Source: Candidatus Uhrbacteria bacterium
GTDB lineage: Bacteria; Patescibacteriota; Patescibacteriia; JACQRZ01
Assembly: GCA_016206175.1 (NCBI GenBank)
Contig: JACQSB010000005.1
Span: forward strand, 1-36,127
Reading direction: 5' to 3'
DNA: 36,127 nucleotides
Under the pieces are notes generated by a model that was given only the letters and a program-made list of their open reading frames with translations, was not told the DNA's origin and searched no databases. Shown here in pieces: positions 3,622 through 35,600 of this stretch (positions within the stretch are counted from its first letter, which is position 1; each line of letters begins with the position of its first letter). The translations under genes were made by a program, and so were the position numbers.

Positions 3622-3676
3622 AATATGAGATCCATCAGCCGACCGTTTGATAGCATCTATGTGTTGTCGCCTTGCA

Positions 3677-5011: not shown

Positions 5012-5017
5012 GAAGTG

Positions 5018-6481: not shown

Positions 6482-6498
6482 AGATAGGGTATGGGGGG

Positions 6499-8393: not shown

Positions 8394-8402
8394 ACGGATA
8401 TG

Positions 8403-9248: not shown

Positions 9249-9255
9249 TGTTGTG

Positions 9256-10119: not shown

Positions 10120-10132
10120 AGATGATATTTCG

Positions 10133-11407: not shown

Positions 11408-11454
11408 ACTCGAGTCTTTCAGCTGTTCACCTTATTGTACTTTACTATACTTCA

Positions 11455-12585: not shown

Positions 12586-14927
12586 AGCTGTTTTGCTTTT
12601 GAAATATCCAAAGTGAGTTGATGATTATGAGTAGGCATCGCGGCAGTAATTGTCTTTTTGTTTGTTGTTGTGCCGATAGGAAAGAGTTCAACTTTCGATT
12701 GCGCGAAACGGGATTCAATAGATTCCCTGTTATCCGGCGCGACCTCTATAACAAAGCCCGGCGTTTCAGAGAAAAGGAAGATGTGAAGCGGCAGTTCATC
12801 AGACATTTCTATACTGCATCCGATTTCATTGCCAAATGACATCTCGGCAAGAGTGACGGCAATGCCACCGTCGGAAATATCATGCGCGCTCAATACAAGT
12901 CCGGCAGAAATTGCGCTCACGAGAGAATGGATCTGCCTGTTTGCTTCCTGCACATCTGATGATGGAAGATTGCTTCCGAGTTTGCCAGATAACGAGTAAA
13001 AAACGCTGCCGCCGCATTCGTTGTTTCTCTTGCCGATGAGATAGAGTTGGGAGCCAGGCTTTTTGAAACTCATGGTGATTGCACGCGATGCGTCATGCAA
13101 TACGCCTAAGCATGCGATGATCGGGCTTGGCGCAACCGCGCTACCATGAGATTCGTTATACAATGACACATTTCCGGAAATAATAGGAACAGGGGAGTCT
13201 GGATACTGTATGTGCCGTAAACATTGAGCGGCTTCGGCAACTCCGCGTACTGCTTGTACAAATTCCCACATTTGCTCAGGCTTTTCCGGATTGCCAAAGT
13301 TAAGACAATCTGTCAGCGCAGCGGGGAATGCGCCAACTGCGGCAACGTTTCTGGCTGCTTCCAGCACGGCAAGCACACCTGCTTTGTATGGATCAATTTT
13401 ACCGTAGCGCGGGTTTTGATCAACTGACAATGCAACGCCGCAGGTGCGTATTTCAGCCGGATAGGATTCATCGATAAATGGCTGCAAGACGCCGGCATCA
13501 GCCTGTCCCGGTTCAATGATCGTTTGCCCCTGTACTTGTTTATCATAGCGTTCGTAAATCGGCTCGCGGGATGCAACATTTTCGTGCGACAGGATTTTGT
13601 AAAAAATGTCGGCGCACCACGTCAGGTATTCATTCCCATCAGATGGAATGTGTAGTTCCTCATCTGTTGGTTCCGATATAGTTCTTTTCGGTTCCGTGAT
13701 TGGACGATCATACCGCAGACCGCGAGTGACGTCTGATGCTTTTGCATGGACAATAGCAACGCTGCCGGAACGGACAATAAAATCATCGTGGTTTTTGATT
13801 TTTCCAATCACTGCGGCACGGGCTCCGTATGCCATCGACGGCAGGTCGAATGTCGTATTGTAGTGCTCTAAAATCAGAGGCGTAATGTCAGGACGCACTG
13901 CCCAGAGATACCGCTCTTGTGTTTCAGAGCAGAGGACTACGGCGGGATGCAGACCTTTCATGCTCACCGGCACCTTGTCGAGATCAACCTCCGCGCCATA
14001 TCCGGCACTATCAGCGATTTCTACCGAAGCACAGGCAATGCCGCCAGCGCCAAGGTCTTTGAATCCGACATATTCCAGCAGATTTCGCTCTTTAAGTTTT
14101 GGCAGAAGAGTGTAGAGCGCTTTGAGTAAATGGCGTTTGAGAAATGCGTTTGGTTCTTGCACCGCACCTTTGTTGAGCTCTTTTTTGGATTCATCGAGTT
14201 CGCCGGAAGCAAAGGCAGCGCCGCCAAATCCGCTGTTATCAGTCGCTTTCCCGACAAGGATTAAATCATAGCCATCGGCGTTTTTTGGCGCGCGGGAGTG
14301 TATTACTTCATCTGCGCGCACCGTCCCGAGTGTGACGACGTTTACAAGGCAGTTTTCATTATATGATTCGTCAAAATATACATCACCTGCGATGGTGGGA
14401 ACGCCGATCGGATTGCCGTATCCGGCAATGCCCGCAACCACGCCGTCTTGGATCCAGCGGGTTTTAGGAGCATCAAGCGCACCAAAACGTAGCGGGTCAG
14501 CATTTGCAATAACTTTCGCGCCCATACATGATACATCGCGCACGTTTCCGCCGATGCCGGTTGCCGCGCCTTCATACGGGACGACTTGCGAAGGATGATT
14601 ATGCGACTCGTGGCTCATCACAATGCCGTATCTGTTCCCGGCATTATCTCGCGCGACTTCGACAATACCCGCGTCTTCCGACGGGCCAAGGATGACATTT
14701 GGCGCATCGGTGACAAATTGTTTGAGATGCGAGCGGCTGCTTTTATATGAACAGTGCTCTGATCCTTGGATAGACCAGAGGATGCACTCGGTGAGCGTTG
14801 GCGGGCGCTTGAGAATCTCGTTCTGTATTTTAAGAACTTCTTCCGGTGTGAGAGAGATGCGATGCCTAGAAAGCATCTCACGGCACTCTTCTGATGAGAG
14901 AGATGCGAAGTCAATGGTTTCGTTCAT
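12555..14927 (-). CDS. purL: Phosphoribosylformylglycinamidine synthase, small PurL type
   Basis: EHCSYKSSRSHLKQF; SHNHPSQVVPYEGAATGIGGNVRD; FKDLGAGGIACASVEIA; TDCLNFGNPEKPEQMWEF; SGNVSLYNES; AHDISDGGIAVTLAEM. 790 aa with no glutaminase or PurS region. Confidence 0.97.
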   Translation of the reverse strand: MNETIDFASLSSEECREMLSRHRISLTPEEVLKIQNEILKRPPTLTECILWSIQGSEHCSYKSSRSHLKQFVTDAPNVILGPSEDAGIVEVARDNAGNRYGIVMSHESHNHPSQVVPYEGAATGIGGNVRDVSCMGAKVIANADPLRFGALDAPKTRWIQDGVVAGIAGYGNPIGVPTIAGDVYFDESYNENCLVNVVTLGTVRADEVIHSRAPKNADGYDLILVGKATDNSGFGGAAFASGELDESKKELNKGAVQEPNAFLKRHLLKALYTLLPKLKERNLLEYVGFKDLGAGGIACASVEIADSAGYGAEVDLDKVPVSMKGLHPAVVLCSETQERYLWAVRPDITPLILEHYNTTFDLPSMAYGARAAVIGKIKNHDDFIVRSGSVAIVHAKASDVTRGLRYDRPITEPKRTISEPTDEELHIPSDGNEYLTWCADIFYKILSHENVASREPIYERYDKQVQGQTIIEPGQADAGVLQPFIDESYPAEIRTCGVALSVDQNPRYGKIDPYKAGVLAVLEAARNVAAVGAFPAALTDCLNFGNPEKPEQMWEFVQAVRGVAEAAQCLRHIQYPDSPVPIISGNVSLYNESHGSAVAPSPIIACLGVLHDASRAITMSFKKPGSQLYLIGKRNNECGGSVFYSLSGKLGSNLPSSDVQEANRQIHSLVSAISAGLVLSAHDISDGGIAVTLAEMSFGNEIGCSIEMSDELPLHIFLFSETPGFVIEVAPDNRESIESRFAQSKVELFPIGTTTNKKTITAAMPTHNHQLTLDISKAKQLWQNGLREKL

Positions 14928-17311: not shown

Positions 17312-17350
17312 CGCCAATCCTTGAGCTTCTTATTCTTTAATATCATTCGT

Positions 17351-18640
17351 ATGAGCCCGGTATTGAGGATTATTACAGGAGGCCTGGTTTTATTCTATCC
17401 CGCAGCTGCGTTTGCGCAGACAACGGAATTAAACACGGGAGACATTGCATGGGTAGCAACCGCTGCCGTTCTCGTGATGATCATGACGCCCGCTTTGGGC
17501 TTTTTTTACGCCGGTTTGGTGCGTACTAAAAACATTATATCGACACTCACGCAGTGCGTTGGCATTTTTGCCGTCGTGAGTTTGGTTTGGACACTGTGGG
17601 GCTATAGCATTGCTTTTGGACCAAGTGTGAATGGATTATTTGGCGATCTTTCCTGGTTCGGATTATCCGGCGTCGGTGCAGCACCAAACGCGGCATACGC
17701 AGCAACGATTCCAGCACTGCTCTTTTATTTCTTTCAGCTGAAGTTTGCCGCCATTACGCCCGCGCTTATCATCGGCGCATTTGCCGAAAGAGTGCGTTTC
17801 ATGTCACTTTTGATATTTGTCGTTTTATGGACGACATTTGTGTATTCTCCGATCGCGCATTGGGTGTGGAACCCCGATGGTTGGCTGCGAAAATTAGGTG
17901 CGCTTGATTTTGCCGGTGGCACGGTGGTGCATATTGCCGCAGGGTTTTCTGCGTTAGCCTGTGCATGGCTTATCGGCAGGCGCAAAGACGCTTCGAATGG
18001 CGCAGAACTCAAGCCAAGCAATATTCCTTTTGTGATTCTGGGCGCAGCATTGCTCTGGTTCGGATGGTTTGGGTTTAATGCCGGAAGCACGCTTGCTGCC
18101 GGAGAGCTTGCCGTGTCTGCCCTTGTCGTCACAAATGTTGCTGCAGCAGCAGGTGCCGTAAGCTGGATGCTCATGGACTGGAGCAGGAAACGAAAAGCAT
18201 CAGCAGTTGGCATCGCAATCGGTGCCGTATGCGGTTTGGTCGCTATCACGCCGGCATCGGGGTTTGTCAACGTCAGTTCATCACTGCTCATCGGTTTCGT
18301 CGCCGGTATTGTTTCAAATATCGCGGCAAATTGGCGAGTGCGTACGCGGCTTGATGATTCACTCGATGTATTTGCCTGCCATGGCGTCAGCGGCATCTGG
18401 GGATCGCTTGCAACAGGTCTTTTTGCTACGCTTACGGTAAATGCCGCAGGTGCAAATGGATTTTTTTACGGCAATTCATCGCTTCTTTGGAATCAAGTAC
18501 TCGCGGTTGCGGCAGTTGCAGCATTTTCGTTTTTTGGTTCGGCATTGATATGGAAGATTACAAACAGCGTTTTTCCGCTTCGCGTGGAGGAATCAGAGGA
18601 AGAACAGGGGCTCGATACTACACAGCACGGTGAAACATAA
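17351..18640 (+). CDS. amt: Ammonium transporter, Amt family (ORF opens at TTG 17321; ATG at 17351)
   Basis: Signal-like N-terminus; MTPALGFFYAGLVRTKN; FAERVRF; FAGGTVVHIAAGFSAL; DVFACHGVSGIWGSLATGLFAT. Confidence 0.96.
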   Translation: MSPVLRIITGGLVLFYPAAAFAQTTELNTGDIAWVATAAVLVMIMTPALGFFYAGLVRTKNIISTLTQCVGIFAVVSLVWTLWGYSIAFGPSVNGLFGDLSWFGLSGVGAAPNAAYAATIPALLFYFFQLKFAAITPALIIGAFAERVRFMSLLIFVVLWTTFVYSPIAHWVWNPDGWLRKLGALDFAGGTVVHIAAGFSALACAWLIGRRKDASNGAELKPSNIPFVILGAALLWFGWFGFNAGSTLAAGELAVSALVVTNVAAAAGAVSWMLMDWSRKRKASAVGIAIGAVCGLVAITPASGFVNVSSSLLIGFVAGIVSNIAANWRVRTRLDDSLDVFACHGVSGIWGSLATGLFATLTVNAAGANGFFYGNSSLLWNQVLAVAAVAAFSFFGSALIWKITNSVFPLRVEESEEEQGLDTTQHGET

Positions 18641-18658
18641 CACAATCGCTTGCATTCT

Positions 18659-20350
18659 ATGCAATTAACTCCTGATGAACTTCACACACTCCTTGTTGAG
18701 AAAGGCTTTTTGAAGGCGGAAGCATTTGATGAAGCTCGCAAGGCAGCAGAGGAGCAAACCATTCCACTTGAATTGTATCTTGTCGATCATGAGTTGATTA
18801 AAGATGAGCAGCTCGGTCTTGTAATAGCCGAGCATTATGAAGTGCCGTTTATCGATCTTGGAAATGTCAAAATCGATGACGCGGTATTGGTGCTCGTGCC
18901 GGAAGTGGTTGCTCGGTCACGCGGCATCATTGCATTTGGAAGAGACGAGAAGGGCTTGCGCATCGCCATGCGCCAACCTCACGATCTTGAGATGATCCAT
19001 TTGATCGAAAAGCGTGCCGGTATGCCCATTGCGCCGTATTATGTGACGCTGCATGACTTTCTCTCCGCGCTTGAACGATACAAAGCGAGCCTCTCCGTAT
19101 CGTTTGAAAAGATTCTTGCCCGTCTCAAAGATCAGCTGTTGAGCCGCGATGAAAGGGATGAAGCGATTGTGGAGCTCATGGATATGCTTGTGCAGTATGG
19201 ATACCAAAACAAGGCTTCAGACATTCATGTATCTCCGATGGCGCGGCATGTCATGGTGCGGTTTCGCATTGATGGCGTTTTGCACGATGTGCTTGAGATG
19301 CCGAAAGAGTTGCTTGATCCGGTCGTGATGCGCGTCAAAATTTTATCAAAAATGCGTACTGACGAACACCGTGCGGCGCAGGACGGGAAGTTTCGCTTCA
19401 ATGCCAAAGAAGAGGTGATTGACGTGCGCGTATCGATCGTGCCAACCACGTATGGCGAAAATGTCGTCATGCGTTTGCTTTCATCAAAACTGCGGCGATT
19501 CAGCCTTGTTGACCTCGGTTTTCAGGAAGCTGATCTGGAAAAGGTGAACCACGCGAGCGAAAGCCCGCACGGCATGATACTGGTGACTGGTCCGACCGGC
19601 AGCGGGAAAACGACGACTGTCTATGCGGTATTAAAGATTTTGAACACGCGCGATATACATATCGCAACGATCGAAGACCCGGTTGAATATGATATCGAAG
19701 GCGCTACGCAGATACAGGTGAATCCGAAAACGGGCCTTACGTTTGCAAAAGGGCTTCGATCTATCGTTCGACAGGATCCCGACATCATCATGGTTGGCGA
19801 AATCCGAGACAGTGAGACAGCCGGCATAGCGGTAAACTCCGCAATGACGGGCCACCTGGTACTCTCTACTCTCCATGCGAATGACTCGGCGACCACATTT
19901 CCTCGATTATTCGATATGGGTATCGAGCCATTCCTGATCGCGTCAACAGTGACGATCGTGATTGCCCAGCGTCTCGTGCGAAAGACCTGCGAAAAATGCC
20001 GTGCCTCGTATGTGCTTACGGCAGAGGAATGGGAGTTGATTGAGGAAGAGCCATCGATCGAGAAATTTTTTGAGTCGCGAGGCTTTACGTCGAAGTCGCG
20101 GCCTCGGGGATATAAAGGAAGCGGTTGTATGGTGTGTGCTGATACCGGTTATTCCGGAAGGCTCGGGATTTTTGAAGTACTGGAAATGAACGACGAGATC
20201 AAACAGTTGATCTTAAAACGCGCTACCAGCGATCAGATCATGAGCGCTTCCAAAAAGGGTGGGATGACGAGTATGCTCGAAGATGGACTCGAAAAAGTTT
20301 TGCTTGGGCTTACTACACTTGAGGAAGTGTTGCGCGCAACAAAGGAATAA
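18659..20350 (+). CDS. pilB: Type IV pilus assembly ATPase PilB/GspE family (ATG 18659; ORF also opens at TTG 18650)
   Basis: Walker A GPTGSGKTTTVYAVL; EDPVEYDIEGATQIQVN; VGEIRDSETA; LSTLHANDSATTFPRLFDMG; zinc motif CEKCRASY...GCMVCADTGYSGR. Confidence 0.95.
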   Translation: MQLTPDELHTLLVEKGFLKAEAFDEARKAAEEQTIPLELYLVDHELIKDEQLGLVIAEHYEVPFIDLGNVKIDDAVLVLVPEVVARSRGIIAFGRDEKGLRIAMRQPHDLEMIHLIEKRAGMPIAPYYVTLHDFLSALERYKASLSVSFEKILARLKDQLLSRDERDEAIVELMDMLVQYGYQNKASDIHVSPMARHVMVRFRIDGVLHDVLEMPKELLDPVVMRVKILSKMRTDEHRAAQDGKFRFNAKEEVIDVRVSIVPTTYGENVVMRLLSSKLRRFSLVDLGFQEADLEKVNHASESPHGMILVTGPTGSGKTTTVYAVLKILNTRDIHIATIEDPVEYDIEGATQIQVNPKTGLTFAKGLRSIVRQDPDIIMVGEIRDSETAGIAVNSAMTGHLVLSTLHANDSATTFPRLFDMGIEPFLIASTVTIVIAQRLVRKTCEKCRASYVLTAEEWELIEEEPSIEKFFESRGFTSKSRPRGYKGSGCMVCADTGYSGRLGIFEVLEMNDEIKQLILKRATSDQIMSASKKGGMTSMLEDGLEKVLLGLTTLEEVLRATKE

Positions 20351-20365
20351 TAAGACATTCGATTC

Positions 20366-21451
20366 ATGCCCGAAGAAAAGAAAAATATCCTGTCAGCCGA
20401 TATATCATTTGGCGGGGTGGGGCCAGCCCAGATTTCGATATTGGCAAAACAGCTTGCCGTGATGTTACGCGCGGGGCTTACCCTTAACGAGTCGCTGCTC
20501 ATCGCGCGGGATTCATCGCGAGGCCAGCTGAAGTCATGCCTTTCTTCGGTAAGTTCCTCAATCAGCGCAGGACAGAAATTATCTCGGGCGCTTTCTGATT
20601 ACCCGCGCATTTTTTCACCGCTTTTCATCAATGCGGTTCGTGCCGGTGAGACCTCCGGCACGCTGGTAGAAAATTTTGAGCAGCTTGCGATGCAGCTGCA
20701 AAAAGAAAAGGAGTTGGCATCAAAGATAAAAGGGGCGATGATTTATCCGATCGTTGTGCTGGTCGCGGCACTGATACTCGGAGCAGGGTTGGCGTTTTTC
20801 GTGTTACCGCAAATCACGCCGTTGTTTGAGCGGCTCAACGTTGATTTGCCGATCACGACAAAAATCATTATTTGGATATCAAAGCAAATCCAATCAAATG
20901 GCGTTGCGATCGCCATCGGCTCTGTCGTTGCAATCGTCGGGTTTGCAGTGTTAATCCGCCAGCGTTTTATGCGGCCGATCACCCACGGAGTATTGTTGCG
21001 GATGCCGGTCATTGCTCCGTTGACGCGCCATGCAAACCTTGCGCGTTTCTGCCGCACACTTGGGACGTTATTGGGCAGCGGTTTGAATATCGATGAAGCG
21101 CTGCTTATCCTGCAAGACACGATGGGTAATTTTTACTACCGCAAGGCAGTACAATCCGTGGCACGGCTCACTACGCGCGGCACGAAACTATCGCGCAACC
21201 TCGAAGATCATGAATGGCTTTTTCCCAAACTCGTCACACGCATGATCGGTGTCGGTGAAGAGTCCGGTAAACTGCAAGAAGCGCTGCTCTTTCTCGCTGA
21301 TTACTACGAGGACGAGCTCGATACTTCAACAAAGTCACTTTCCACCGCTATCGAGCCGCTGTTGTTAATCGGCATCGGTTTGGCTGTCGGATTCCTCGCG
21401 CTTTCCATCATTACACCGATCTATGAAATCACGGGAAACGTCAAGAGATAA
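20366..21451 (+). CDS. pilC: Type IV pilus inner-membrane protein PilC/GspF family
   Basis: QLAVMLRAGLTLNESL; FINAVRAGETSGTL; KIKGAMIYPIVVLVAALIL; ARFCRTLGTLLGSGLNIDEAL; RMIGVGEESGKL; AIEPLLLIGIG. Confidence 0.95.
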   Translation: MPEEKKNILSADISFGGVGPAQISILAKQLAVMLRAGLTLNESLLIARDSSRGQLKSCLSSVSSSISAGQKLSRALSDYPRIFSPLFINAVRAGETSGTLVENFEQLAMQLQKEKELASKIKGAMIYPIVVLVAALILGAGLAFFVLPQITPLFERLNVDLPITTKIIIWISKQIQSNGVAIAIGSVVAIVGFAVLIRQRFMRPITHGVLLRMPVIAPLTRHANLARFCRTLGTLLGSGLNIDEALLILQDTMGNFYYRKAVQSVARLTTRGTKLSRNLEDHEWLFPKLVTRMIGVGEESGKLQEALLFLADYYEDELDTSTKSLSTAIEPLLLIGIGLAVGFLALSIITPIYEITGNVKR

Positions 21452-21926
21452 CGGCCGAGGCGGGACGGGTTTTACCCTGATCGAGCTGCTTGTCGTCTTG
21501 ACGATTTTTTTACTTCTTATCGTGGGGTCAATTTCCCTGTTTCGCTCCACGCAGGTATCGGCTCACTTGAACGAGCAGTCGAACGCTCTCATCCATGCCT
21601 TACGCTCCGCCGATATTGAATCTTTGTATGGTCGGCATAATAACTCGCATGGTTTGTATTTTACGGCCGCGCCCGGAGGCGAAGAACAAATCATCCGATA
21701 CACCGGTACGTCGTATGCCGGACGTGTCGCCGGTTCTGAAATTACCTACACATTTCCATCATCGATTGATCTGTCGCTCCAGCTGTCTACGACGACCCCC
21801 GAGATCGTTTTTGCGCGCAATACCGGCGTGCCTAGCGCAACAGGCACGATCCTACTCGATCTTGCCGGTATTGGCTCGAGGACAATATCAGTCAATCGAC
21901 TCGGCGCTGTTGATGAGGTTGATTAG
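21423..21926 (+). CDS. Pilin-like protein with type IV prepilin signal (GspH/FimT-like)
   Basis: Prepilin cleavage motif GTG/FTLIELLVVLTIFLLLIVGS; overlaps the pilC end by 29 nt. Confidence 0.88.
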   Translation: MKSRETSRDNGRGGTGFTLIELLVVLTIFLLLIVGSISLFRSTQVSAHLNEQSNALIHALRSADIESLYGRHNNSHGLYFTAAPGGEEQIIRYTGTSYAGRVAGSEITYTFPSSIDLSLQLSTTTPEIVFARNTGVPSATGTILLDLAGIGSRTISVNRLGAVDEVD

Positions 21927-21951: not shown

Positions 21952-24936
21952 ATGCGTTTTTATCAAAAAGGTGAAAGTCTCCTTGAAGTCGTGCTTGCTC
22001 TCGGTATTTTTTCATTGATGATTGCTGCCATCACGGCGATGCTCACCGGCGGTTTTGGATTATCTCGCATATCGGAATTGTCACTCCAAGGAAATGCACT
22101 TGCGCAAGAAGGGATTGAGAATACGCGCTCGGCGCATGCCGATACGTGGAATATCATTCCCTACACGCAAACAACGACCGAAACACTCGGCAGATTTACG
22201 CGGACAACAACATACAACGCCGTATGTCGAACAGCGGTGCATGAAATAGCAACGTGTCCGGCATCATATACCGATATCCATACAAAGGAGGCTGTTGTGA
22301 CGGTAAGCTGGCAAGATCGGATTGGAATAACGAATTCTGTGCGTCGAGCAACGTATCTGACAAATTGGGAGTCGCAGGATTGGACGCAGACAGATTGGTC
22401 AGGCGGTGCAGGGCAAACGATCTGGAATGATACAACAAAATACGATAGTTCTACATCACTTACCGCGACAAGCAGTCCCGGTACGTTGCGGCTCGGTGAT
22501 GCTCCGGACGGCCAATGGTATATCAGCGGCGGCTCCGAACGTACCGACACCACCGATACCCAGTTCAATGCAGGCACCTTATCGGATGTTGTTGTAAACG
22601 GTTCTGGTGAAAACGCTGGAGTCACGCTTGAGCAGGGTTTGCAGTGGGCGCCACACCAGAACAGCGCGAGTACGACCTCGTCGCATCTGAATGCTATTTC
22701 TCTCCTATCGTCGACCGATATATGGGCATCCGCAAATAACGGAGAGATTATCCGCTACGATGGTTCTTCGTGGTCACTGAATTACGATGTTGGCAGCGCG
22801 CATCTTAACGGTATCGCGATGCGCACCACATCCGATGGTTGGGCAGTGGGGCAGTCAGGAAAAATCTATCACTACAATGGAACAGCATGGAGTGAGAGCG
22901 CAGACAGCGGAAATGATGTATGGTTTGACATTGCATCTCTTGCCAGTAATGACGTATGGGTGGTGGGCAGTGATGACGATGAAGCAGAAGACGACGGCAA
23001 AATCGCCCATTATAATGGTTCCGTATGGTCGTATGTTACCCCGCCTTCTGATCATGTGATCTACGGTGTTGCAGCTGTATCGCCAACAGATATGTGGGCT
23101 GCGGGAAAGAGCGGCCGTATCTGGCGATACAATGGTGTATCATGGAGCCTGCAAACGGATACCGGATCTGAAACATGGAATGACATCGTATTGATTTCAG
23201 CAAACGACGGATGGGTGGCTGGCAAGAGCGGTGCCGTTGCCCATTGGAACGGGTCAGCATGGACTGTTGCTGCCGTACCTTCTCCGGCGGAAATAAAATC
23301 CCTTGATGCCATCTCATCAACCGATATCTGGGCAGTCGGACAAAATGGCAATGTATGGCACTACAATGGGAGTGCATGGGAATATCGTGGGACAGCCGGA
23401 TCTGATAAGTTAAACAACATTACCATGATCAATGCGCAAACCGGCTGGGCCGTAGGAAACAATGGACGCATCGAGTTGTATGGGTTGCTTCTCTATGATG
23501 CAACAGGCACGTATCAGTCAACGGTCGTTGATACGGGTACGGCTTCCCCGATCTGGAGTGTTGCCTCCTGGGTTGAAACTCTTGTTGCAGGAGGCAATGT
23601 GACGATAGCAACACGCACGGGCGCAACTCCCGCACCTGACGGGTCATGGTCATCATGGAGTGGAGAGCTGACACAACCAAACGGATCGCAGATCACGTCG
23701 CCATCCGCACGCTATTTGCAATATCGCATATCATATACACGCGGAGATAATCCTACAGAAAGCCCACGAGTTGATGCCGTCACCATACAATACAATCTTG
23801 CGACATCAGCGAATCTCTACAGCATAGCGGCACTATCGTCATCGGATGTATGGGCCGCAGGAGCGAGTGGTAAGATTATTCATTTTGATGGTACTGGTTG
23901 GGCAGAGTATGCAGATACCGGCAATGAAACATGGTATGCAATGGATTTTCGTACTCCTATCGATGGCTGGGTCGGCGGTATCAGTGGAAGCGTTGCGCAT
24001 TGGAATGGTTCCTCATGGTCAGATTCATCAGTACCGTCCGCAGCGGATATTCGTGCGATCGCTGCTGTTGCTGTTAATGATGTATGGGCCGCCGGCCTTT
24101 CAGGCCGCATTTGGCATTACGACGGTTTATCGTGGACGCTTTTTATCGATACCGGCAACACAACATGGAGAACACTTGCGTTCTCATCTGCCAATGATAT
24201 CTGGGCAGGCGGCGATAGCGGCGCGCTCGCGCACTGGGATGGTTCTTCATGGTCCACTTCAACAATCCCATCTCCGGATACGATATACGGCATGACGGCA
24301 GTCTCGTCATCCGATATGTGGGCTGTCGGCGCGAACGGTAAGATTTGGAATTATAACGGATCAAGTTGGTCACTGCATACCGATACGGGATCGCAGCAGT
24401 GGTTGGGAAGCGCTTTTCCCACAAGTTTTGATGGATGGGCAATAGGAGGAGACGGCGCGATACGGCGATATAACGATACCGCATGGAGTTCCTTTTCTTC
24501 GCCAACCGCGGAGATGCTATCAGCAGTGTCATTTGCGAGTAGAAAGCTCGGTTGGGCTGTTGGTGATGACGGGATGGTGCTGCGTTTTTATCGAGAAAGC
24601 GTATCGGTGATGTCCGGCAGTTTGCAGTCATCAGCTTTTTCCATGAGCGATGCTTCGCCGATCCAAACCATTGAGTGGACTGATGTTAGCACTGATTGCA
24701 GTTCTCCTTGCAAACTGCAATTCCAGCTTCGAGCGGCTCCTGATGCAGGCGGGTCCCCCGGTACCTGGAGTGACTGGTATGGCGCAAACGGTACAAGCAC
24801 GTATTTTACCGTGCCGAATGGTTCTCTTGTGCCAACGGCATTAAATGGCAAGCAATGGGTGCAGTACCGCGCGGAGTTCATAAGCGATGGCACGAGTACC
24901 CCTATCCTTTCCGATGTAACTGTTAATTATCAGTAA
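21952..24936 (+). CDS. Giant pilin-like protein (~994 aa): prepilin N-terminus plus two blocks of seven propeller-type repeats and two beta-sandwich-like domains
   Basis: Start MRFYQKG/ESLLEVVLALGIFSLMIAAITAM (prepilin-like). 14 copies of ...D.WA.G..G.I.HYNG..W... at ~38 aa spacing. The ORF track start at 21595 overlaps the upstream pilin gene and is unlikely. Confidence 0.9.
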   Translation: MRFYQKGESLLEVVLALGIFSLMIAAITAMLTGGFGLSRISELSLQGNALAQEGIENTRSAHADTWNIIPYTQTTTETLGRFTRTTTYNAVCRTAVHEIATCPASYTDIHTKEAVVTVSWQDRIGITNSVRRATYLTNWESQDWTQTDWSGGAGQTIWNDTTKYDSSTSLTATSSPGTLRLGDAPDGQWYISGGSERTDTTDTQFNAGTLSDVVVNGSGENAGVTLEQGLQWAPHQNSASTTSSHLNAISLLSSTDIWASANNGEIIRYDGSSWSLNYDVGSAHLNGIAMRTTSDGWAVGQSGKIYHYNGTAWSESADSGNDVWFDIASLASNDVWVVGSDDDEAEDDGKIAHYNGSVWSYVTPPSDHVIYGVAAVSPTDMWAAGKSGRIWRYNGVSWSLQTDTGSETWNDIVLISANDGWVAGKSGAVAHWNGSAWTVAAVPSPAEIKSLDAISSTDIWAVGQNGNVWHYNGSAWEYRGTAGSDKLNNITMINAQTGWAVGNNGRIELYGLLLYDATGTYQSTVVDTGTASPIWSVASWVETLVAGGNVTIATRTGATPAPDGSWSSWSGELTQPNGSQITSPSARYLQYRISYTRGDNPTESPRVDAVTIQYNLATSANLYSIAALSSSDVWAAGASGKIIHFDGTGWAEYADTGNETWYAMDFRTPIDGWVGGISGSVAHWNGSSWSDSSVPSAADIRAIAAVAVNDVWAAGLSGRIWHYDGLSWTLFIDTGNTTWRTLAFSSANDIWAGGDSGALAHWDGSSWSTSTIPSPDTIYGMTAVSSSDMWAVGANGKIWNYNGSSWSLHTDTGSQQWLGSAFPTSFDGWAIGGDGAIRRYNDTAWSSFSSPTAEMLSAVSFASRKLGWAVGDDGMVLRFYRESVSVMSGSLQSSAFSMSDASPIQTIEWTDVSTDCSSPCKLQFQLRAAPDAGGSPGTWSDWYGANGTSTYFTVPNGSLVPTALNGKQWVQYRAEFISDGTSTPILSDVTVNYQ
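22678..23490 (+). repeat. Protein-level tandem repeat block 1 (7 blades)
   Basis: Blades read as SSHLNAIS..., SAHLNGIAM..., NDVWFDIAS..., SDHVIYGVA..., SETWNDIVL..., SPAEIKSLD..., SDKLNNITM.... Confidence 0.85.
23806..24597 (+). repeat. Protein-level tandem repeat block 2 (7 blades)
   Basis: Blades read as SANLYSIAAL..., NETWYAMDF..., SAADIRAIAA..., NTTWRTLAF..., SPDTIYGMTA..., SQQWLGSAF..., TAEMLSAVSF.... Confidence 0.85.
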
Positions 24937-24940
24937 AGCA

Positions 24941-25486
24941 ATGCAAAGCGCAACTTTTCAATCAACAGCAGTTTCGAGCGACTCTCGGGCATTCACGCTC
25001 ATTGAAGTCATTATCGCAACAGCGGTGATATCGGGTATTGTTTTTGCCTCGGTTGGTTTTTTTGGCGCCGTCCTTGCTGGCCGCGCAAAAACGCAGGCCG
25101 CGCAAGAAGTGCATGACGCGACAAGAATTGCATCAGCGCTTATCACAAAGCGTATTCGAGCGGCAGCAACAGTTGTAAGCGCATCTTCCACATTTGGCGT
25201 CAGTCCCGGCGTTCTAACTCTTTCGATGGCCGACAGCGCTCTGAATCCGACTGTTATATATGTCTCAGGGAATTCCATACTGCAGATAACAGAAGGGACG
25301 TCAGCTCCCGTGAGTGTGACGAGCAACAATGTTTCCATTACGAATCTCATATTTACGCAGACTTCGTACCCGGGAAGCAGTGGAGGCATTACTCTTGATA
25401 TGACAATAGCATATCGTAATCCAGACGCGGATCCGAATTATTCTTATTCATTGCGTCAGCAGACACTTACCTTATTGCGGCCCTGA
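24941..25486 (+). CDS. Minor pilin-like protein (PilW/GspJ-like)
   Basis: Prepilin motif SRA/FTLIEVIIATAVISGIVFASVGFF; operon context. Confidence 0.85.
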   Translation: MQSATFQSTAVSSDSRAFTLIEVIIATAVISGIVFASVGFFGAVLAGRAKTQAAQEVHDATRIASALITKRIRAAATVVSASSTFGVSPGVLTLSMADSALNPTVIYVSGNSILQITEGTSAPVSVTSNNVSITNLIFTQTSYPGSSGGITLDMTIAYRNPDADPNYSYSLRQQTLTLLRP

Positions 25487-25487
25487 T

Positions 25488-25892
25488 ATGGTACATTCCG
25501 TGATACACTCTAAAGCAGCCTCGCTTATCATAGCAGTTATGATTATATCGGCAGCCCTTTTCGTGGTTGCTGTGACGAATATCAATGTCGGGATTGGAGA
25601 TGCTGATCTTGCGCTTGTCGCAACGAAGGGCGAGCAAGCATATACAGCAGCAGAGGGTTGCGTGCAAGATACATTGCGACAGATACGGCGGACTGCTTCG
25701 TATGGCGTAGGCAGTGGTACTATCACATTCACATCAACGATCGGATCGTGTACAATAGATGTCATTGATCTTGGTGGCAACCAACGCAGAATATCTGTCA
25801 CCGGCACCGTCGATGATTTCTCGAGACGGATTACTGTTACCGCAACAGTCGGCGGGTTGGTGATTACTATTCAGTCATGGCAAGAAACATAG
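25488..25892 (+). CDS. Small PilX/GspK-like minor pilin
   Basis: N-terminal SKAASLIIAVMIISAALFVVAVTN hydrophobic segment; 134 aa; pilus operon context. Confidence 0.6.
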   Translation: MVHSVIHSKAASLIIAVMIISAALFVVAVTNINVGIGDADLALVATKGEQAYTAAEGCVQDTLRQIRRTASYGVGSGTITFTSTIGSCTIDVIDLGGNQRRISVTGTVDDFSRRITVTATVGGLVITIQSWQET

Positions 25893-25897
25893 GCCGT

Positions 25898-27610
25898 ATG
25901 AAGCAGACAAAAAAAACAAAGAAATCAAAAAATATCATAGGGATCGACATCGCAGACCATACGTTATCGCTTGTTGAGCTCGAAAAAAATAGAAACCATC
26001 CTCACATCACGTCTGTTACGCGGGTAAGCATACCTTCCGGCATTGTCGTACGAGGGAGGATACGCGATGCCGAAAAACTTCAGGAATTATTTGAATACGC
26101 GATTTCAGCTGCGCATCCTGCGCCGATGGTGTCTCGAAATGCGATCATGGGAATACCCGACAGCCAATTATACACGCATCTTGCGCGTCTGCCTGCAAAA
26201 AAAGATAGTGAATTCGAAGAAGTTGCGCGATCAGAAGCTTTCAATACATTCCCCATCGAGAAACGCGATCTAGTATATTCCTATCGTTCGGTATCCCATA
26301 CCACCGATGGTGCAGACACGGTATTTATTGCTACATCCAAAGAGGTTCTGCGCGAATGGGATTTATTTTTTCGGCGGATAGGCATTTCAGTATTATTTTA
26401 TGACAGCGAAGTTCTCGCGACCGCGCGCGGGTTAGTGGCACACGGAGGCGATAACGCATTTTGTCTTGTGGATATTGGCGCTGCCACCACCACTGTTTCT
26501 GTATTTGATGTGATAGGCATTCGGTATGTGTATTCAATCGAACACGCGGGAAGCGCATTAACAGAAGGCATTGCAAAACTGGAAAGCCTGCCGTTTGATG
26601 AGGCGCAAAAGAGAAAACACGAACTGGATCTTGCTGATATTCCAACGAGCCTTGCAGCGATCCTTCCATCATTTTTTGATCCCATCCTCAAAGAAATAGA
26701 TACGGCAATCAAATACGTATCGCAAAGCTATAACGTTTCTGTTGCAAAAATCATTCTTGTTGGCGGAACAGCTGCCTTGAAAGGGTTGCCGGAATACATC
26801 AGCAAGCATACTGGCATCGATACCGAGCGAGGTGTTTCTATCATTACGAATGCAGAGCAGAGTCGTGTGCAACGCGAGGAGCCAAGCATTGAATCGATCG
26901 GATTAGCGTTATACGGACTCAATCAAAAAGAATACGAGAACTCTCCAAATCTGATTTCTCCTCCGGAAGATACGGCGCAAGGCGAGGTTGTCGCGAAGAA
27001 AGGCGCGCCGCAAGCATATGATGCAAGCGTTGAAAAAATGAAGGAGTTTCGTGACATCAGAAAAGAACAAAAACGCATGCGTAATCAGATTATGACGTTA
27101 GTGGTTGTTTTGGTTGTTGGCACGGCGTTGCTTATGGCAGCGTTTTGGTATCAGCGGCAAGAGCAGGAGCGAAAAGAACAAGCGCTACGCAAGGCGATCC
27201 CGCAATACACGTATCAGCAAACAGCGCAGATGCTCATACCAATTAGCATCCAGGGCTCGGCAGAAGGTATGGCATCGGGTAGTCTGTCTCGGATATCGGT
27301 GCCGGAGGATACGGTTGTCAATGATGCGATACGAGCTGATGCCGAAGTGAACTTGCGCCGCCAACTGCAGGCAGGGCAAGATTATTGGAACAAGCCGTTT
27401 GATCCGCCATTGTCGTTTCTCGTATTTAACAAAAATGAAGTTCGCTTACTTGCCAATGCTATGATTGCCCAACGCGCGGGTACAGCGATACCCTATGATG
27501 TAGGGTATATCGAATATCTAGATGCCGAAAAATCGGAGGATACACCGGTATTTTTTCTGACTGTACGGGCATCCATTAGCGCGCAAGCGCCCCTGCAGGG
27601 TCTGGAATGA
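25898..27610 (+). CDS. pilM: PilM-like actin-fold pilus protein fused to a C-terminal TM helix and extracytoplasmic domain (ORF opens at 25877; M at 25898)
   Basis: NIIGIDIADHTLSLVELE; CLVDIGAATTTVSVFD; KIILVGGTAALKGLPEYI; then QIMTLVVVLVVGTALLMAAFW TM and ~150 aa tail. Confidence 0.85.
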   Translation: MKQTKKTKKSKNIIGIDIADHTLSLVELEKNRNHPHITSVTRVSIPSGIVVRGRIRDAEKLQELFEYAISAAHPAPMVSRNAIMGIPDSQLYTHLARLPAKKDSEFEEVARSEAFNTFPIEKRDLVYSYRSVSHTTDGADTVFIATSKEVLREWDLFFRRIGISVLFYDSEVLATARGLVAHGGDNAFCLVDIGAATTTVSVFDVIGIRYVYSIEHAGSALTEGIAKLESLPFDEAQKRKHELDLADIPTSLAAILPSFFDPILKEIDTAIKYVSQSYNVSVAKIILVGGTAALKGLPEYISKHTGIDTERGVSIITNAEQSRVQREEPSIESIGLALYGLNQKEYENSPNLISPPEDTAQGEVVAKKGAPQAYDASVEKMKEFRDIRKEQKRMRNQIMTLVVVLVVGTALLMAAFWYQRQEQERKEQALRKAIPQYTYQQTAQMLIPISIQGSAEGMASGSLSRISVPEDTVVNDAIRADAEVNLRRQLQAGQDYWNKPFDPPLSFLVFNKNEVRLLANAMIAQRAGTAIPYDVGYIEYLDAEKSEDTPVFFLTVRASISAQAPLQGLE

Positions 27611-27738: not shown

Positions 27739-28263
27739 ATGAATAGAATGAAAATGCAAGGATCACGCTGTACAAAGGGTTTTACCCTTATTGAGTTGCT
27801 GATCACAATTGCGGTAATCGCGATTTTAGCGGCAGTGGCTTTTGTTGCGTTAAATCCATTGCAGCGTTTCCAAGACACACGTGATGCGCGCCGCGCATCT
27901 GATGTTGCGGCTGTTCTGTCTGCTGCTAAGACGCATCAAGTCGATAATGACGGTGCCTACCTTGCCGCGATCTCCGGACTGACTGCCGGGCAAGTCTATA
28001 TGATTAACGATGGCTCGGCAGCAACTGGCTGCGATGATAACAATGCGCAGTGTGATACGGCTGTGACAAATGATACAGCGTGTGCCAACTTGAGCGGACT
28101 GGTGACAGGAGGGTATCTTGCCTCGGTTCCGATGAGCCCGAATGGCGCGGGTACCTGGACTGCGGCACGATCTGGCTACACGATATCGCGATCAGCAACG
28201 AACGTACTTACGGTGCGTGCCTGTGAATCGGAAAACACAACCGAGATTTTCTCCTCACGATAG
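27739..28263 (+). CDS. Type IV major pilin-like protein
   Basis: CTKG/FTLIELLITIAVIAILAAVAFVALNP prepilin motif; Cys-containing C-terminal region; own promoter and terminator. Confidence 0.92.
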   Translation: MNRMKMQGSRCTKGFTLIELLITIAVIAILAAVAFVALNPLQRFQDTRDARRASDVAAVLSAAKTHQVDNDGAYLAAISGLTAGQVYMINDGSAATGCDDNNAQCDTAVTNDTACANLSGLVTGGYLASVPMSPNGAGTWTAARSGYTISRSATNVLTVRACESENTTEIFSSR

Positions 28264-28506: not shown

Positions 28507-28857
28507 ATGGCAAAGAAACTCTACGTTGGCGGACTTCCGTACACAACGACTGAAGACGAGTTGAAAGACGCGTTTTCACAGTCAGGTACGGTTGCATCGG
28601 CAACAATCATCAAAGATAAGTTTTCAGGCCGTTCCAAAGGTTTTGGATTCGTCGAATTTGAAAACGACGAAGAAGCCGACAAGGCTGTCGAACTGTGGAA
28701 TGGCAAGGAACTCGGCGGACGCCGTCTTACGGTAAACGAAGCGCGTCCGTTTCAGCCTCGTCCAGCAGGCGGCGGTCGATCATTCGGCGGCGGCGGTCGG
28801 GGCGGCTACGGCGGCGGCGGTCGGCAGAACTACGGTTCTGGCGGATACAGTTCCTAA
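28507..28857 (+). CDS. RNA-binding protein, single RRM plus glycine-rich tail
   Basis: RNP2-like KLYVGGLPY and RNP1-like RSKGFGFVEF; tail GGGRSFGGGGRGGYGGGGRQNYGSGGYSS. Confidence 0.95.
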   Translation: MAKKLYVGGLPYTTTEDELKDAFSQSGTVASATIIKDKFSGRSKGFGFVEFENDEEADKAVELWNGKELGGRRLTVNEARPFQPRPAGGGRSFGGGGRGGYGGGGRQNYGSGGYSS

Positions 28858-29653: not shown

Positions 29654-32600
29654 TTACAGCTTCACGACCTCAAGTTTTGCAAGGTCGGCATTGCTGATGC
29701 CAAGGCCTTTTTCACGCATGATGGCAAACGCGTCTGACGGCCGTCCGAGATAGTATGCCTTCTTATCTTTCGGATAGACATAGTGCGCACGGCCCTTTGT
29801 ATCTATGTCAATGAGAATCTTTCCCACTACATTAGCAGGGTATTCCATATAGCCTTTTAGAAAGCTGTTTTTTACCCCGAGCCCCAATTTGCGCATGACA
29901 GCAAATGCGTCGGCTGGCCGTCCGAGAGAATATGCCTTACTGTCTACCGGATAGATATAGTAAGCCTCACCATGCGATTGCGTCTGCAATACAATCATTC
30001 CTTTGAGCCGGTCAGCAAATGATAGCGTTTTTGCCGTTATTGGTGATGCACTTTTTTTAGCTGCAAGTGTTTTAACTGCTACCTGATCCATATTGGTGGA
30101 CTCGTTGTTATATTGATCCACGCTACGGACAGTGTAGTAGTATGTTTTTGATGCACTTACCGTCTCATCGGTTGCCTTGGTTTCCGTCGTTGATGATATC
30201 ACGAGTTTGCCGAGATCACCTTTTGTTGATGAGCGGTACACTTTGCTGTAGCTAACAGTGCTTGCAATATCTTTCGCATAACTCCAAGCAAGCGATACAG
30301 CCCCCGTTGACGCCACTGAAGCAGAGACGGTTTGCGGGATCGAGCGCGTCTCTGTCTGTGTGGAAGCGATCAGAGCAAACTTCGTCAGATGCGCAAGCGT
30401 GCCGGTAATCGTATGGTCAGCTTCATTGACAACTGCATTTTGCACTGGTTGCCAGCTGTAGCGTGCTTCATCCCAGAATTGGAGAGACAGATCGGTCGGC
30501 GTGAGACCAAGACGTTTTAATTCTGTCGGCTCATACGGTATAGCTACGGTGATATCCGAATTAAAGGATGATATGTCTCTTCCTTGTGCAGAGCGGACAT
30601 CAACATCATATCCGAGCCCAACAACTCGTGAGGAACCTTGGGAAGGTGTCACAACCTGTGGCGTTATCGAGAGCGCAACGGCGCCGCCCGTGCCTGCCGA
30701 GCCCGGAGGGAGCGAGACTTTTACCCCTTCGCTGTTGCTGACTACTGCGAGCTGGTCAGCATCTGCCGTTGCCGTCACGGGGTCGGGGAGCCGTACATCG
30801 AGTGATGCAAGGCTGATATTTTGCGTGATTTTTTCTTCTGTTCCGATCGGCAACGTGAACTCCGAGCTTTTATATGCCACCCGATCTTTTTCTGACATTG
30901 CGGCGATATGCCATACATCGTTTGCCGCGACTTTCAATTTGTATCTGCCGTCATCATCAGCATATCCATCGGTATAGCCACCCTTATCCGACCATGCCCA
31001 GATGAACGCCCACGATGGCGATCCATCAATCATCGCAGTGCCGCTCAATGTGACGTTGATCGGGCGGAACACAAGCGTGACATCTTTTGTCTCGCCTGCA
31101 GCAGCAGACACTTTTTGTTCCACCGGGTTTGCATAGCCAAGTGAAGGAGGCAAGAAGGATCGGATGTAGTAGGCGGTATCCGGTCTTACCTTAAAGTTAA
31201 ATTTGCCGTCTTGATCCGTGTAGTCGCCATTGAGGTAGGATAATTGTTTTGCGGTTTCCTTGGAGAAGAACGCAAAACTCTTCGTGGAAATCCCAATCCA
31301 TATATTCTGTACCGGTTTTCCTTCCGTATCGATCGCTCTGCCATTTAGGTTAGCATTTGCGCGATAGGCCTTTAGCTCAGCAGAACGATCTTGTCCCGGC
31401 TGCACTGTCATCTTTATGCCGCGCATTTGCTGAGGCTTCAGGTAGGTGCCCGATGGATCACTGATGTCATAGTCTATATACCAATCTCCGGGCGGGAGAC
31501 TCATCTTGAATGTGCCCTTAGTCGTATCAACGTCAGCAGAATACCACGCGCCATTTTTGCCCGCGGTAAAGACCTTGAACGGTACGCCGGTCACCAATGA
31601 TCCGCGCTCATCTACCAGCCTGCCTGAAATGCTTGACGCTTTTGCCGAAACTGTAAAATTTACTTGTTTCCGTTCGCCGGTTGCAAGCGCAACAGAAACA
31701 GCATTCTCCGGTACATACGTTGAGTTTGGCAACGTTTCAAGAGTTAAGATGTATTCTCCGGCAGGCACGCGCAAAGTAAACTCACCATTCTGCACCGGAG
31801 CGCCTTGGGGCAAACGCGTTCCGGATTTCTGCTGCACGGAGACAAAGCCGTAAAATCCGGTGATAATCGCGCCTTCCGGTGTACGGATGTTCCCCGATAC
31901 AAAAGCATCAGATGCTGAAATAGCGAAATCAACAGTCACTGGTTCAGCCCCCGACACTCTGACAATACGCGGTGGCCCTTGCATACTGTAGCCTGACTCC
32001 GGATCTAGTATTACGCTCACCGTCCATTCGCCAGCGGACACCTTTAGGAAGTATTTGCCATTGTCGTCTGTGGCGCCAAAGATTGACTCTCCGGTGGATG
32101 ATTTCCATGCGCCGACTTTCACTCTGCCAAGCGGCATATTTTTATCATCTCTCACCGTCCCTTGGATCACGCGGTTGGTGGTGAGGAGTGTTATTGTTTC
32201 AAGGTCTTTTGATTCTCCATCCGCAAGAGTGATTGTTCTGGGGGGCGGGGGAGTGATGCCGATATTTTGCGTAAGCAATTCGACTACCACCGTATATGAG
32301 CCAGCTGGCACGGGTACCTCAAACCTTCCATCCGCGTCATTCGATATGCTGAATGGCGGCATTTCGGAACGCCCTGTTAGTCGAACGGATACCGACCCCA
32401 CGGGTAGTGCAAGTCCATCTTCGCGCGCAACGCGACCGAATACTTTTGTCGCACTAATGCGGCTAACTGTGAAGTCAACTTGCTTGATCGGCGTTGCAAC
32501 GTCTCCAACAACTACTTCTTTTGGCGGTCCGGACCAATACCAATTTGATCCACCGAAATAAGTATTTGACGCCGGTATAAAGCCGCTGTTTGATTGCGGA

Positions 32601-35600
32601 TTGGCTGTACCTGACGTGAATGGTACAGAACCGCCTCCAGTGGCGGAGGTTGTGAGTGTCTGACACGGGCTTTGGGGTGCTTCGGAGTAAACATCGTAAT
32701 AGTTGCGCGCTGAACGGGATTGCAGCGATAGCATCCATGTGCCTGGCGCTAGGCTCATGCAATACGAACCAGTACTGTCAGTGTAAGCAGACACAGAGCC
32801 CGGACCATCTTTGCGCCAGGCCTCCACAACAGCGTCAGTCACAGGAGTATTATCAGGGTAGCGTATGAACCCTTTGACCGTGAATTGCGATACCGATAGT
32901 GTAAAGTTTTGTTCTCTTGTTTCTGTAGCGCTCAACCCGATCGTAACTTGTTCTGACGAGCGCATACCCTGCTGTCGCGGCGATGGGTGAGCTTGCACGA
33001 TGTAGGTGTTGGCGGCGAGATTGCGGAAGCTGTATTCGCCAAACGCCGTTGTCGTTATAGTCGTGAAGTAGGTGTATGACGCATTGGAGAGCGATACCGT
33101 CGCGTTTGGAACGGGCGTTCCACGAGAGTCGCTTACGATTCCTTTTACCACGCCTGAACCGACAGCAGTGCTTGATTGTGTTGTAAAAGTGTAAGAGTAA
33201 TTGTTTGCGATTGTTTCACCACTTGATGATTTGATTCCTCCCCGTATGGTCACTTCGTACGTCGTATCTGACTGGAGTGCGTCAAATAGTTGGAATCCAA
33301 TACCATACGGATATGTTTGGATAGTTCCATTGAGCGGAGTTGCAGCACCGATGGGCCGTACGGTGATGGTATCTTTTGTGACGGAGGACGAGAGCAATGT
33401 TTTATTCAGCTCTACGCCGATATTTTTATTCGTCACCGGTACTGTCTTGTCTCCCGGTCTCGGCCAGAGCGTTTCGGTTTTGATCCCAAACGGTAATGAA
33501 ACAGACGATTGTTTGGTCTGGAATGAATATGCGGCGGACGATGCAGTATTGCCGCTCGAGTCTTTTGAAGTAACGGTAAAATAGTATGTCGTATTCGGTG
33601 TGAGGCCGGTAAGCTGGATTGAATGGTTGCTCGTGTAGGTACCCGGCGTGGATTCAGCCGCGCTTCCGTACGACTGCGATATGCCGTAATCAACACGTGA
33701 TGTCGCTGGCCTGTTTGTCTGCCAGCCGATCCAGATTGAGTTTCCGTCATCCGATGAACCGGCAGGATTTACATTATAGACGGTAAGCGGTTCGGTGACG
33801 GGATTTGGCGGGATGACTGTCTGGAGTGGCAGGGTGACATTTTGCCGCATCGTTGAGCCGCTAGTAAGCACTACACCCGATATGCGAGAAACACTCCCGA
33901 GATCAGTGCGTGTCGAAGGAGGCGATACACCCATTTCGTATGTACCGGCAGGAATGCCAGGGAAGGCATATTCGCCTTGTGCGTTTGTCATGCCGCTTGC
34001 CCAATAGCTCATGATAGCCGGAACAGGCATGCCCGGCGTAGCAGTATACGACGGAGTGCTTAGCCCAACCGTTGCGCCTTGAAGGGCTGTGCCGTCAGGC
34101 GCTTTTACTACCGCAACGAGATATGCGTCGCCGGGAGGGAATGTATTATTGATAGGTAGATTTGTCGGTTGTGTTGATGCTGACAATGTTTTGAATTGCA
34201 GCTGTGATGAAGGAGCTGATATCACCCCGTCAGTATTTTTTACATACGCTCGAGCGTAATAAATCGTGTCTGGTGCAAGCCCTCGCAATTCAATCGAAGG
34301 CGTAGCAGTTGTAGTGGATGAGAAAGGTGACACAGTGCCGTACTGCGGCGTTGTGCCGTACTCTACTTTCATGGTCACTTGCTGATTTGATGTGCCTTCG
34401 ATCTTTGCTCCGTCACGGAAAATCTCTGCAATCCTGACATTTGACAGCGTGGGTGTGTTCGAAGCCGTCGGCGGAGTGGATGTGGATTGCGTGTCAGAAA
34501 GAGTTGTAAAGGAAAAGTTTGGCTGCGTCGTTGATAATCCCGTTTCATTTGTCGCCACGATTTGATACGTATACGCAGTTCCTTTTGTGAGGTTTGGAAG
34601 ATAGATGCCAATACTTTTAAGATTATCTTTTGAGACGGTGATTTCCGGACTCGCAACAAGGACTCCACCGTCAAGCTTGTATTCAACTTTTGCTTTGCCG
34701 GGCTCATCAAGTTCAAAAGAGATAATGGCTGAAGTCTGGCTGATGTTTGTTGCCCGTACATTGCTGACCACCGGCGGTGTGGTGTCCGGTTGGGCTGTTG
34801 AGTCGGTAAAGGTGGTGTTCAATGAGGAAGCAAGGCCGCCAGCATCGTATGCGCGGATGGCGATGTAGTATGTCTTGCCGGCAGTTAAGCCATTTAAGGT
34901 ATATGACTGCATGGTGCCGCCAGCGACAGGAGTGGGAGGTGCAGGATTGGTGGCGACAAGCGATGATTGCCAGTCAGACTCCGTTTCAATCGGGGTAAGT
35001 TTGTAGCGAATTTCATATCGCGCGGCTGGTTGGGGAGTTGAGCTGATGCCGGGATCCCATGGCGCGGTCCATGAAAAAGCGATTGATGTTGTTGTCACCG
35101 TATCAATTTTTAACCCTGTGATTTGTGCTGGAGGAAATGTGTCTGTGGGGGCTGCGGCAGTTTTAATATCCCAGATACCGGGAAGGGTTGATGCATTTCC
35201 TGTAGCATCATACGAAAGCACGCCAAAACGATACGTGGTATTTGTTTCCAGTCCCGAAATTGTCAATGATTGCGTGACACCCATGGATGCCGGCAATGTC
35301 GGAACAAACGAAAGCTGTGTAGCAGCGATTTCAGGCGCGCTATTCCAAAAGCCGCCATCCGATGGGCTTTGAAATAATGTGCCGCCGTGTTTTTGGTACT
35401 TCACTTGATAGCGCGCAGGACCCGCGCCTGCATTCCAGCCGTCATCTCCCGGTGTTTTCCAGTTAAACGTCACCGTGTCATGCGTTACGGTTACCGTAGC
35501 CGCAGAGCCGAGATTAGCTTTGCCATCGGCTACATTGCCAGGTGCTACCGTATCTGATGCCGGTGTTGCAAAGACGTAATTTGAAGATGAGACGCCATTG

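Follow-up and report, generated by a model that had tools for sequence, protein, structure and literature searches.

The window, a stretch of 36,127 nucleotides from a Candidatus Uhrbacteria genome, carries a pilus operon on its forward strand, within which an open reading frame (21952-24936, +) encodes a protein of 994 aa (MRFYQKGESLLEVVLALGIFSLMIAAITAM). The genes of this operon and the parts of the encoded protein are collected in Table 1. Directly 3′ of the operon lies the gene for a small RRM protein with a glycine-rich tail (28507-28857, +; RRM_1, E 2e-25) and, just beyond the operon on the opposite strand (29654-35926, -), that for a protein of 2090 aa which is predicted to be secreted, in which Pfam finds fibronectin type III, carboxypeptidase-regulatory-like and Big_5 domains and which is a second candidate for a large surface protein. 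A long purine-synthesis run occupies 1517-14927 (-) and includes purH, purN, purD, purF, purB, purE, purC and a purL-type gene, all named by eye from their translations, a rich set for so small a genome. The assembly comes to 934 kb at 77% completeness, its relatives being mostly of 0.6-1.7 Mb, and both it and most of these relatives are fragmented into many contigs. Members of the Candidate Phyla Radiation characteristically lack ribosomal protein L30; it was absent in 19/19 of the genomes searched and present in 13/14 control genomes, and an assignment to the Patescibacteria is therefore likely.

Table 1. Features of the pilus operon and of the 994 aa protein encoded within it
Feature	Position	Strand	Basis
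Ammonium transporter	17321-18640	+	Pfam Ammonium_transp E 4e-122; directly upstream of the pilus operon
PilB-type extension ATPase	18650..20350	+	Pfam T2SSE E 2e-127, MshEN; TIGR02538 E 1e-154, below cut-off
PilC-type platform protein	20366..21451	+	Pfam T2SSF, two stretches, E 1e-56
H-type (GspH/FimU-like) minor pilin	21423..21926	+	Pfam N_methyl above cut-off; weak GspH match
Giant modular minor pilin, 994 aa	21952..24936	+	Translation and all analyses
Prepilin leader MRFYQKG, predicted cut after Gly7	21952..21972	+	Sequence; conserved mature Glu5
N-terminal helix and pilin module, residues 8-142	21973..22377	+	Full-length model, helix 10-32; family alignment
Linker with W-x-QTDW-SGG-GQ motif, residues 143-242	22378..22677	+	Conserved in family alignment
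Propeller 1, seven blades, residues 243-510	22678..23481	+	Repeats, Ycf48 profile, AlphaFold2, Foldseek
First ~105 aa domain, residues 511-612	23482..23787	+	Family HMM 77.7 bits; AlphaFold2 pLDDT <50
Propeller 2, seven blades, residues 619-880	23806..24591	+	Repeats, block-1 HMM; partly modelled in full-length model
C-terminal ~114 aa domain, residues 881-994	24592..24933	+	Family HMM 160.3 bits
W(J)-type minor pilin	24941..25486	+	Pfam N_methyl at cut-off; order kept in relatives
X(K)-type small pilin-like protein	25488..25892	+	No family match; position and order in relatives
PilM-type assembly protein, C-terminal extension	25877..27610	+	Pfam PilM_2 E 3e-29
Major-pilin candidate PilA (KGFTLIELLI)	27739..28263	+	Pfam N_methyl E 6e-9; conserved place, operon end

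A second in-frame ATG is present 5′ of the chosen start, at 21595, and as it falls inside the preceding pilin gene we regard 21952 as the sensible start. Read from there, the N-terminus is of prepilin type, MRFYQKG/ESLLEVVLALGIFSLMIAAITAM, with Glu at mature position 5 (the slash marks the predicted cut). The site itself reads QKG/ESLLE, and Gly at -1, Glu5 and the hydrophobic stretch of a class III prepilin signal are all present (QKG/ESLLEVVLALGIF). The first residue of mature type IV pilins is usually Phe or Met; here it is predicted to be Glu, and the family alignment gives mostly Gln in the relatives and a nearly invariant Glu5 across 21 of them. The Pfam model N_methyl matched the protein with an E of 0.003, below the cut-off, and passed the cut-off in several relatives occupying the same operon slot. 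The original prediction of a prepilin-type start thus agrees with the QKG site, with Glu5 in the family, with the location of the gene within a pilus operon and with the prepilin peptidase encoded elsewhere in the genome. The protein does, as predicted, greatly exceed a normal minor pilin in length, but its size alone is unsurprising because pilins of large, modular build are as a class both known and common (PMC8179133). The protein has the layout of that class, two propellers and two domains of ~105-114 aa lying C-terminal to the pilin module.

To place the protein within the pilus machinery we compared about 20 loci, most of which keep the order PilB, PilC, H, giant pilin, W, X, PilM and PilA; among the deviations, contig ends truncate some loci, the upstream portion is missing in G036, and one extra pilin is present in each of G322 and G340. 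The giant pilin gene sits between the H and J/W genes, which is the I (GspI/PilV) position of the H-I-J-K or FimU-PilV-PilW-PilX set, and this set is the priming and tip complex of type IV filaments (PMC7541494, PMC9934059). I-type models were the commonest matches of the N-terminal module (GspI in 16 of 21 cases, ComGE in 17, XpsI in 13 and PilV in 10), all of these matches being weak and that of the window protein lying below the cut-off, and we therefore draw the I-type assignment mainly from gene order. With a profile of this module, 180 of the 389 class genomes yielded members at E <= 1e-12, and the strongest members are mostly 580-2200 aa in length. As a PilD-type prepilin peptidase and PilT-family ATPases are encoded in the genome, a processed and retractable pilus is plausible. 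A search for PilY1 (PF05567) found none in this genome or in 98 relatives, although no control genome passed the cut-off either.

Most of the protein beyond its linker consists of 14 repeats with a period of 39 aa, arranged in two blocks of seven. The core Trp motifs lie at residues 257, 296, 335, 381, 420, 459 and 498 in block 1, in which blade 3 has one acidic insertion of 7 aa, and at residues 633, 672, 711, 750, 789, 828 and 867 in block 2. The mean pairwise identity of the 14 repeats is 31%. An HMM built from block 1 alone recovered 7/7 of the block 2 blades, with 226 bits in total and 10-57 bits for each, whereas the best total in 2000 shuffles of the protein was 11.5 bits and no single repeat matched above 10 bits. 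These data clearly show that the 14-repeat pattern is real and not due to chance. The two domains that follow the blocks are found again in relatives (the family HMM, whose training set includes both, scores them at 77.7 and 160.3 bits), and the C-terminal one is common to most slot proteins of the class. Against PDB sequences, the ~105 aa domain gave nothing better than E 0.15.

With the 994 aa protein itself as query, Pfam and NCBIfam returned nothing but the N_methyl match below the cut-off and did not identify a propeller family; with each block as query and E values up to 10 allowed, Pfam gave no RCC1 family, and PF05567, the PilY1 propeller domain, gave no Pfam match in the protein. As single-sequence searches gave no propeller family, a family profile was needed, and the one we built from 15 propeller blocks matched the PDB propellers of Ycf48 at E 2.3e-16. 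Taken singly, 5/15 propeller blocks matched Pfam PSII_BNR/YCF48 (best 1.1e-14), and the 994 aa protein alone did not. Ycf48 is itself seven-bladed (in line with PMC8038367). An AlphaFold2 model of propeller 1 and the next domain, for which five sequences were supplied, gave pLDDT values mostly of 85-94 over the propeller and <50 over the domain. When this model was submitted to Foldseek, Ycf48 chains were the top matches (E 1.7e-15, TM to target 0.70), followed mainly by WD40-type propellers such as G-beta. The full-length model, made from only four sequences, was poor overall (pTM 0.40) and nevertheless resolves helix 10-32, propeller 1 and most of propeller 2.

Two seven-bladed propellers of Ycf48 type are therefore strongly supported by the Ycf48 homology, the confident model of block 1 and the blade counts in sevens across genera described below, and the match to closed structures suggests that their rings would close. 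This is in keeping with the original prediction, both in its reading of the repeats as 7 + 7, which the Trp motif positions, the block-1 HMM and the shuffles bear out, and in its proposal of propellers, for which AlphaFold and Foldseek gave a confident propeller 1 (pLDDT ~90) with Ycf48 as first match. Of the ~105 aa beta-sandwich-like domain that it placed after each block, the domain is indeed there and recurs in relatives, and the fold is plausible but not confirmed by AlphaFold2 (pLDDT <50).

We then surveyed pilins with a variable number of blades, using relatives that share the pilin module from about 20 genera of the class, with blades listed singly and the ~105 aa domain taken as the boundary of a propeller block. 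Of the 46 blocks in about 20 related pilins, 40 contain a multiple of seven (7, 14 or 21 blades), with up to 35 blades per protein and, in all, one to five propellers per relative; as the 46 blocks share kinship and are not independent events, no p-value is attached to this count. The window protein, G005, G053 and G322 have blocks of 7,7, as has G001, where they are split over two contigs, and G250, where they stand behind a broken N-terminal part. A single block of 7 was found in G009, G007 and G002, blocks of 14,7 in G024, G036 and G138, of 21,7 in G194, of 7,7,7 in G232 and G113, and of 7,7,7,7,7 in G242. The exceptions are G156 (7,7,6), G340 (7,6), G111 (7,6), G328 (6) and the irregular G205 (about 11, 4, 7 and 7 blades). 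Two weak terminal blades of <3 bits, in G113 and G205, were counted since their core motif stands at the correct spacing; odd counts of 8 and 15 in the raw HMM output arose from extra sub-3-bit matches in neighbouring domains, and with these removed became 7 and 14. Collapse or mis-joining of near-identical repeats may explain some of the blocks that are not of seven, and the irregular blocks of the G205 slot pilin (L086:5593-11217, 1875 aa) reflect either a genuine exception or an assembly error in the repeat. Closed rings of seven blades demand such a pattern of sevens, which recurs over many genera.

In a maximum-likelihood tree of 45 propellers, those of different genera cluster according to their position in the protein. 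G024, G138 and G194 group together in their first propellers with support of 100/100 and in their last propellers with 100/99, while the first propellers of the window protein, G005 and G001 form one clade and the second propellers another, both at 100/100. In addition, the tree contains whole-propeller duplicates, with propeller 1 of G036 beside its propeller 2 (99/98) and propeller 2 of G242 beside its propeller 4 (95/81). The positional grouping together with these duplicates indicates that propellers behave as units of gain and loss, and blade numbers in sevens offer a clean example from nature of a protein evolving by whole propellers and not by single blades. Between the window protein and G001 the two propellers are 71% and 61% identical and the pilin module 78%, and between the window protein and G005 every part is 50-58% identical. 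Unusually fast divergence of the propellers was thus not found in the comparisons with G001, where they are only modestly more divergent than the pilin module, and with G005.

Propellers are not the only modules found in this slot. In the propeller-free slot proteins the same pilin module is kept, and usually the C-terminal domain as well, and between them lie Laminin_G_3 (G043, G082, G157, G175, G210, G233 and G254), CBM_4_9 (G210 and G254), DUF4082 (G108 and G239) or modules without any family. Laminin_G_3 falls in the ConA-like lectin superfamily, to which the module that binds glycans in S. sanguinis PilC also belongs (PMC9934059). Elsewhere in the phylum, where 389 genomes were sampled, the same propeller family occurs, often with 7 or 14 blades, and the pilin N-module is absent from all of the inspected propeller proteins there. 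In this sample, the fusion of pilin and propeller therefore appears as a feature of the class. The carriers in other lineages of the phylum (L133-L141) are non-pilin proteins with blocks of ~7 or ~14 blades, several of them long (1000-2400 aa), and a lipoprotein-like protein of 603 aa from Krumholzibacteriota (L022:7932-9740) has, by eye, 14 blades of the same family. The viral contigs searched gave no relative, and a named genome collection gave only distant, non-pilin propeller proteins (Myxococcaceae, Krumholzibacteriota, Actinobacteria and Archangium).

Building on what the sequences establish, namely the pilin signal, the 7 + 7 blades, the propeller family, the operon slot, the module exchange and the counting in sevens, we propose that the protein is a modular minor pilin of the I position, probably located at the tip, which displays its two propellers as binding heads, and we consider this the probable reading. 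Prepilin peptidase would cut the leader and the N-terminal helix would pack into the filament. The protein would most likely stand at the tip beside the H-, W(J)- and X(K)-type pilins, because the propeller part is too large for burial in the helical shaft, and the two Ycf48-type propellers, each followed by its ~105-114 aa domain, would act as the heads by which the pilus attaches to a target surface, most likely a glycan or protein on a neighbouring cell. We infer both the tip location and the adhesion from the I (GspI/PilV) operon position and from the lectin and carbohydrate-binding modules that relatives carry in the same slot; the host-recognition role also offered by the original prediction is its more tentative part. 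A display platform would have the pilin module as one constant end and, in most cases, the C-terminal domain as the other, and lineages would place between these ends from one to five propellers, or else lectin modules, the number shifting by whole propellers. Against this reading count the N_methyl match below the cut-off, the drawing of the I-type assignment from sub-threshold matches and gene order, the 6/46 blocks that are not of seven, and propellers that do not display the fast divergence a host-recognition head might show.

The same lack of fast divergence would suit propellers that serve as a structural cap or plug with no particular ligand, priming assembly and stopping retraction like the cork role of the PilY1/minor pilin complex; the I-position subunit does prime in known systems (PMC7541494, PMC9934059) and PilT-family ATPases are present. 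We nevertheless consider such a role unlikely, since a plug needs neither one to five propellers nor their exchange for lectin or carbohydrate-binding modules. Those same modules point to glycans or cell surfaces and so argue against a pilus that is mainly a device for DNA uptake or surface motility, whose propellers would bind DNA, minerals or a polymer and not a partner cell. PilB, PilC, PilM, the H-I-W-X minor pilins and the PilT-family ATPases would also fit competence or twitching pili, and ComGE models are among the best, albeit weak, N-module matches, but the propeller pilin of TM7x acts in host binding and its pilus is dispensable for motility or competence (PMC12206443), and we judge this explanation to be quite improbable. 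A single continuous superhelix or open array of the 14 repeats, in place of closed seven-bladed rings, is very improbable indeed: the 14 or 21 blades without an intervening domain in G024, G036, G138 and G194 and the 6 blocks that are not multiples of seven would suit it, but the ~105 aa domain separates the two blocks here, block 1 alone is confidently modelled as a Ycf48-like propeller, and the blocks count in sevens and are inherited as seven-blade units.

With the propellers read as binding heads at the tip, we would tentatively go further and suggest that the fixed slot may be an evolvable display rack, in which whole propellers (one to five) or lectins are swapped and duplicated, propeller number and type setting which neighbouring cells the pilus grips and how tightly. 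If true, the slot would be a self-contained substitute for PilY1 drawn from a different propeller family. How Patescibacteria choose and hold their host cells is an open question, and PilX2 of TM7x is the sole experimentally linked propeller pilin in the literature that we found. The giant-pilin family points to a single gene position bearing candidate binding heads across dozens of genera, by which host preference becomes comparable with propeller number and type, and the isolated heads are directly testable.

Among known systems, the closest in description is PilX2 of the episymbiont Nanosynbacter lyticus TM7x, likewise a minor pilin of a small bacterium with a predicted hepta-bladed propeller, the deletion of which lowered host binding from ~10.6% to 4.6% of host cells (PMC12206443). 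PilX2, taken here by its description, has one propeller of RCC1 type and no predicted PilD signal reported (PMC12206443), whereas the 994 aa pilin has Ycf48-type blades, two propellers, extra domains and the I position. Modular type IV pilins are known in 264 architectures (PMC8179133), and PilB (vWA) and PilC (ConA-like lectin) of S. sanguinis combine, as here, a prepilin start and pilin module with a grafted binding module (PMC8179133, PMC9934059). The lectin module of that PilC binds glycans and its tip location was modelled (PMC9934059), and the likeness extends to the slot relatives with Laminin_G_3; in the 994 aa pilin, however, propellers replace the vWA or lectin module, and its relatives have up to five repeated modules. 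The PilY1/PilC tip adhesins resemble it in having a propeller at the pilus tip beside H-I-J-K pilins, a location that is inferred for our protein, but PilY1 is a separate, non-pilin protein of another propeller family (PF05567). The photosystem II assembly factor Ycf48/HCF136 shares the propeller family, by profile and by fold, and the seven blades, but is a single propeller for photosystem assembly without a pilin module or link to pili. A single-propeller pilin (TM7x PilX2) and modular pilins as a class (PMC8179133) are thus already known, and what seems new here is the family to which the propellers belong, their multiplication to as many as five, the constancy of the slot and the swapping of propellers for lectins.
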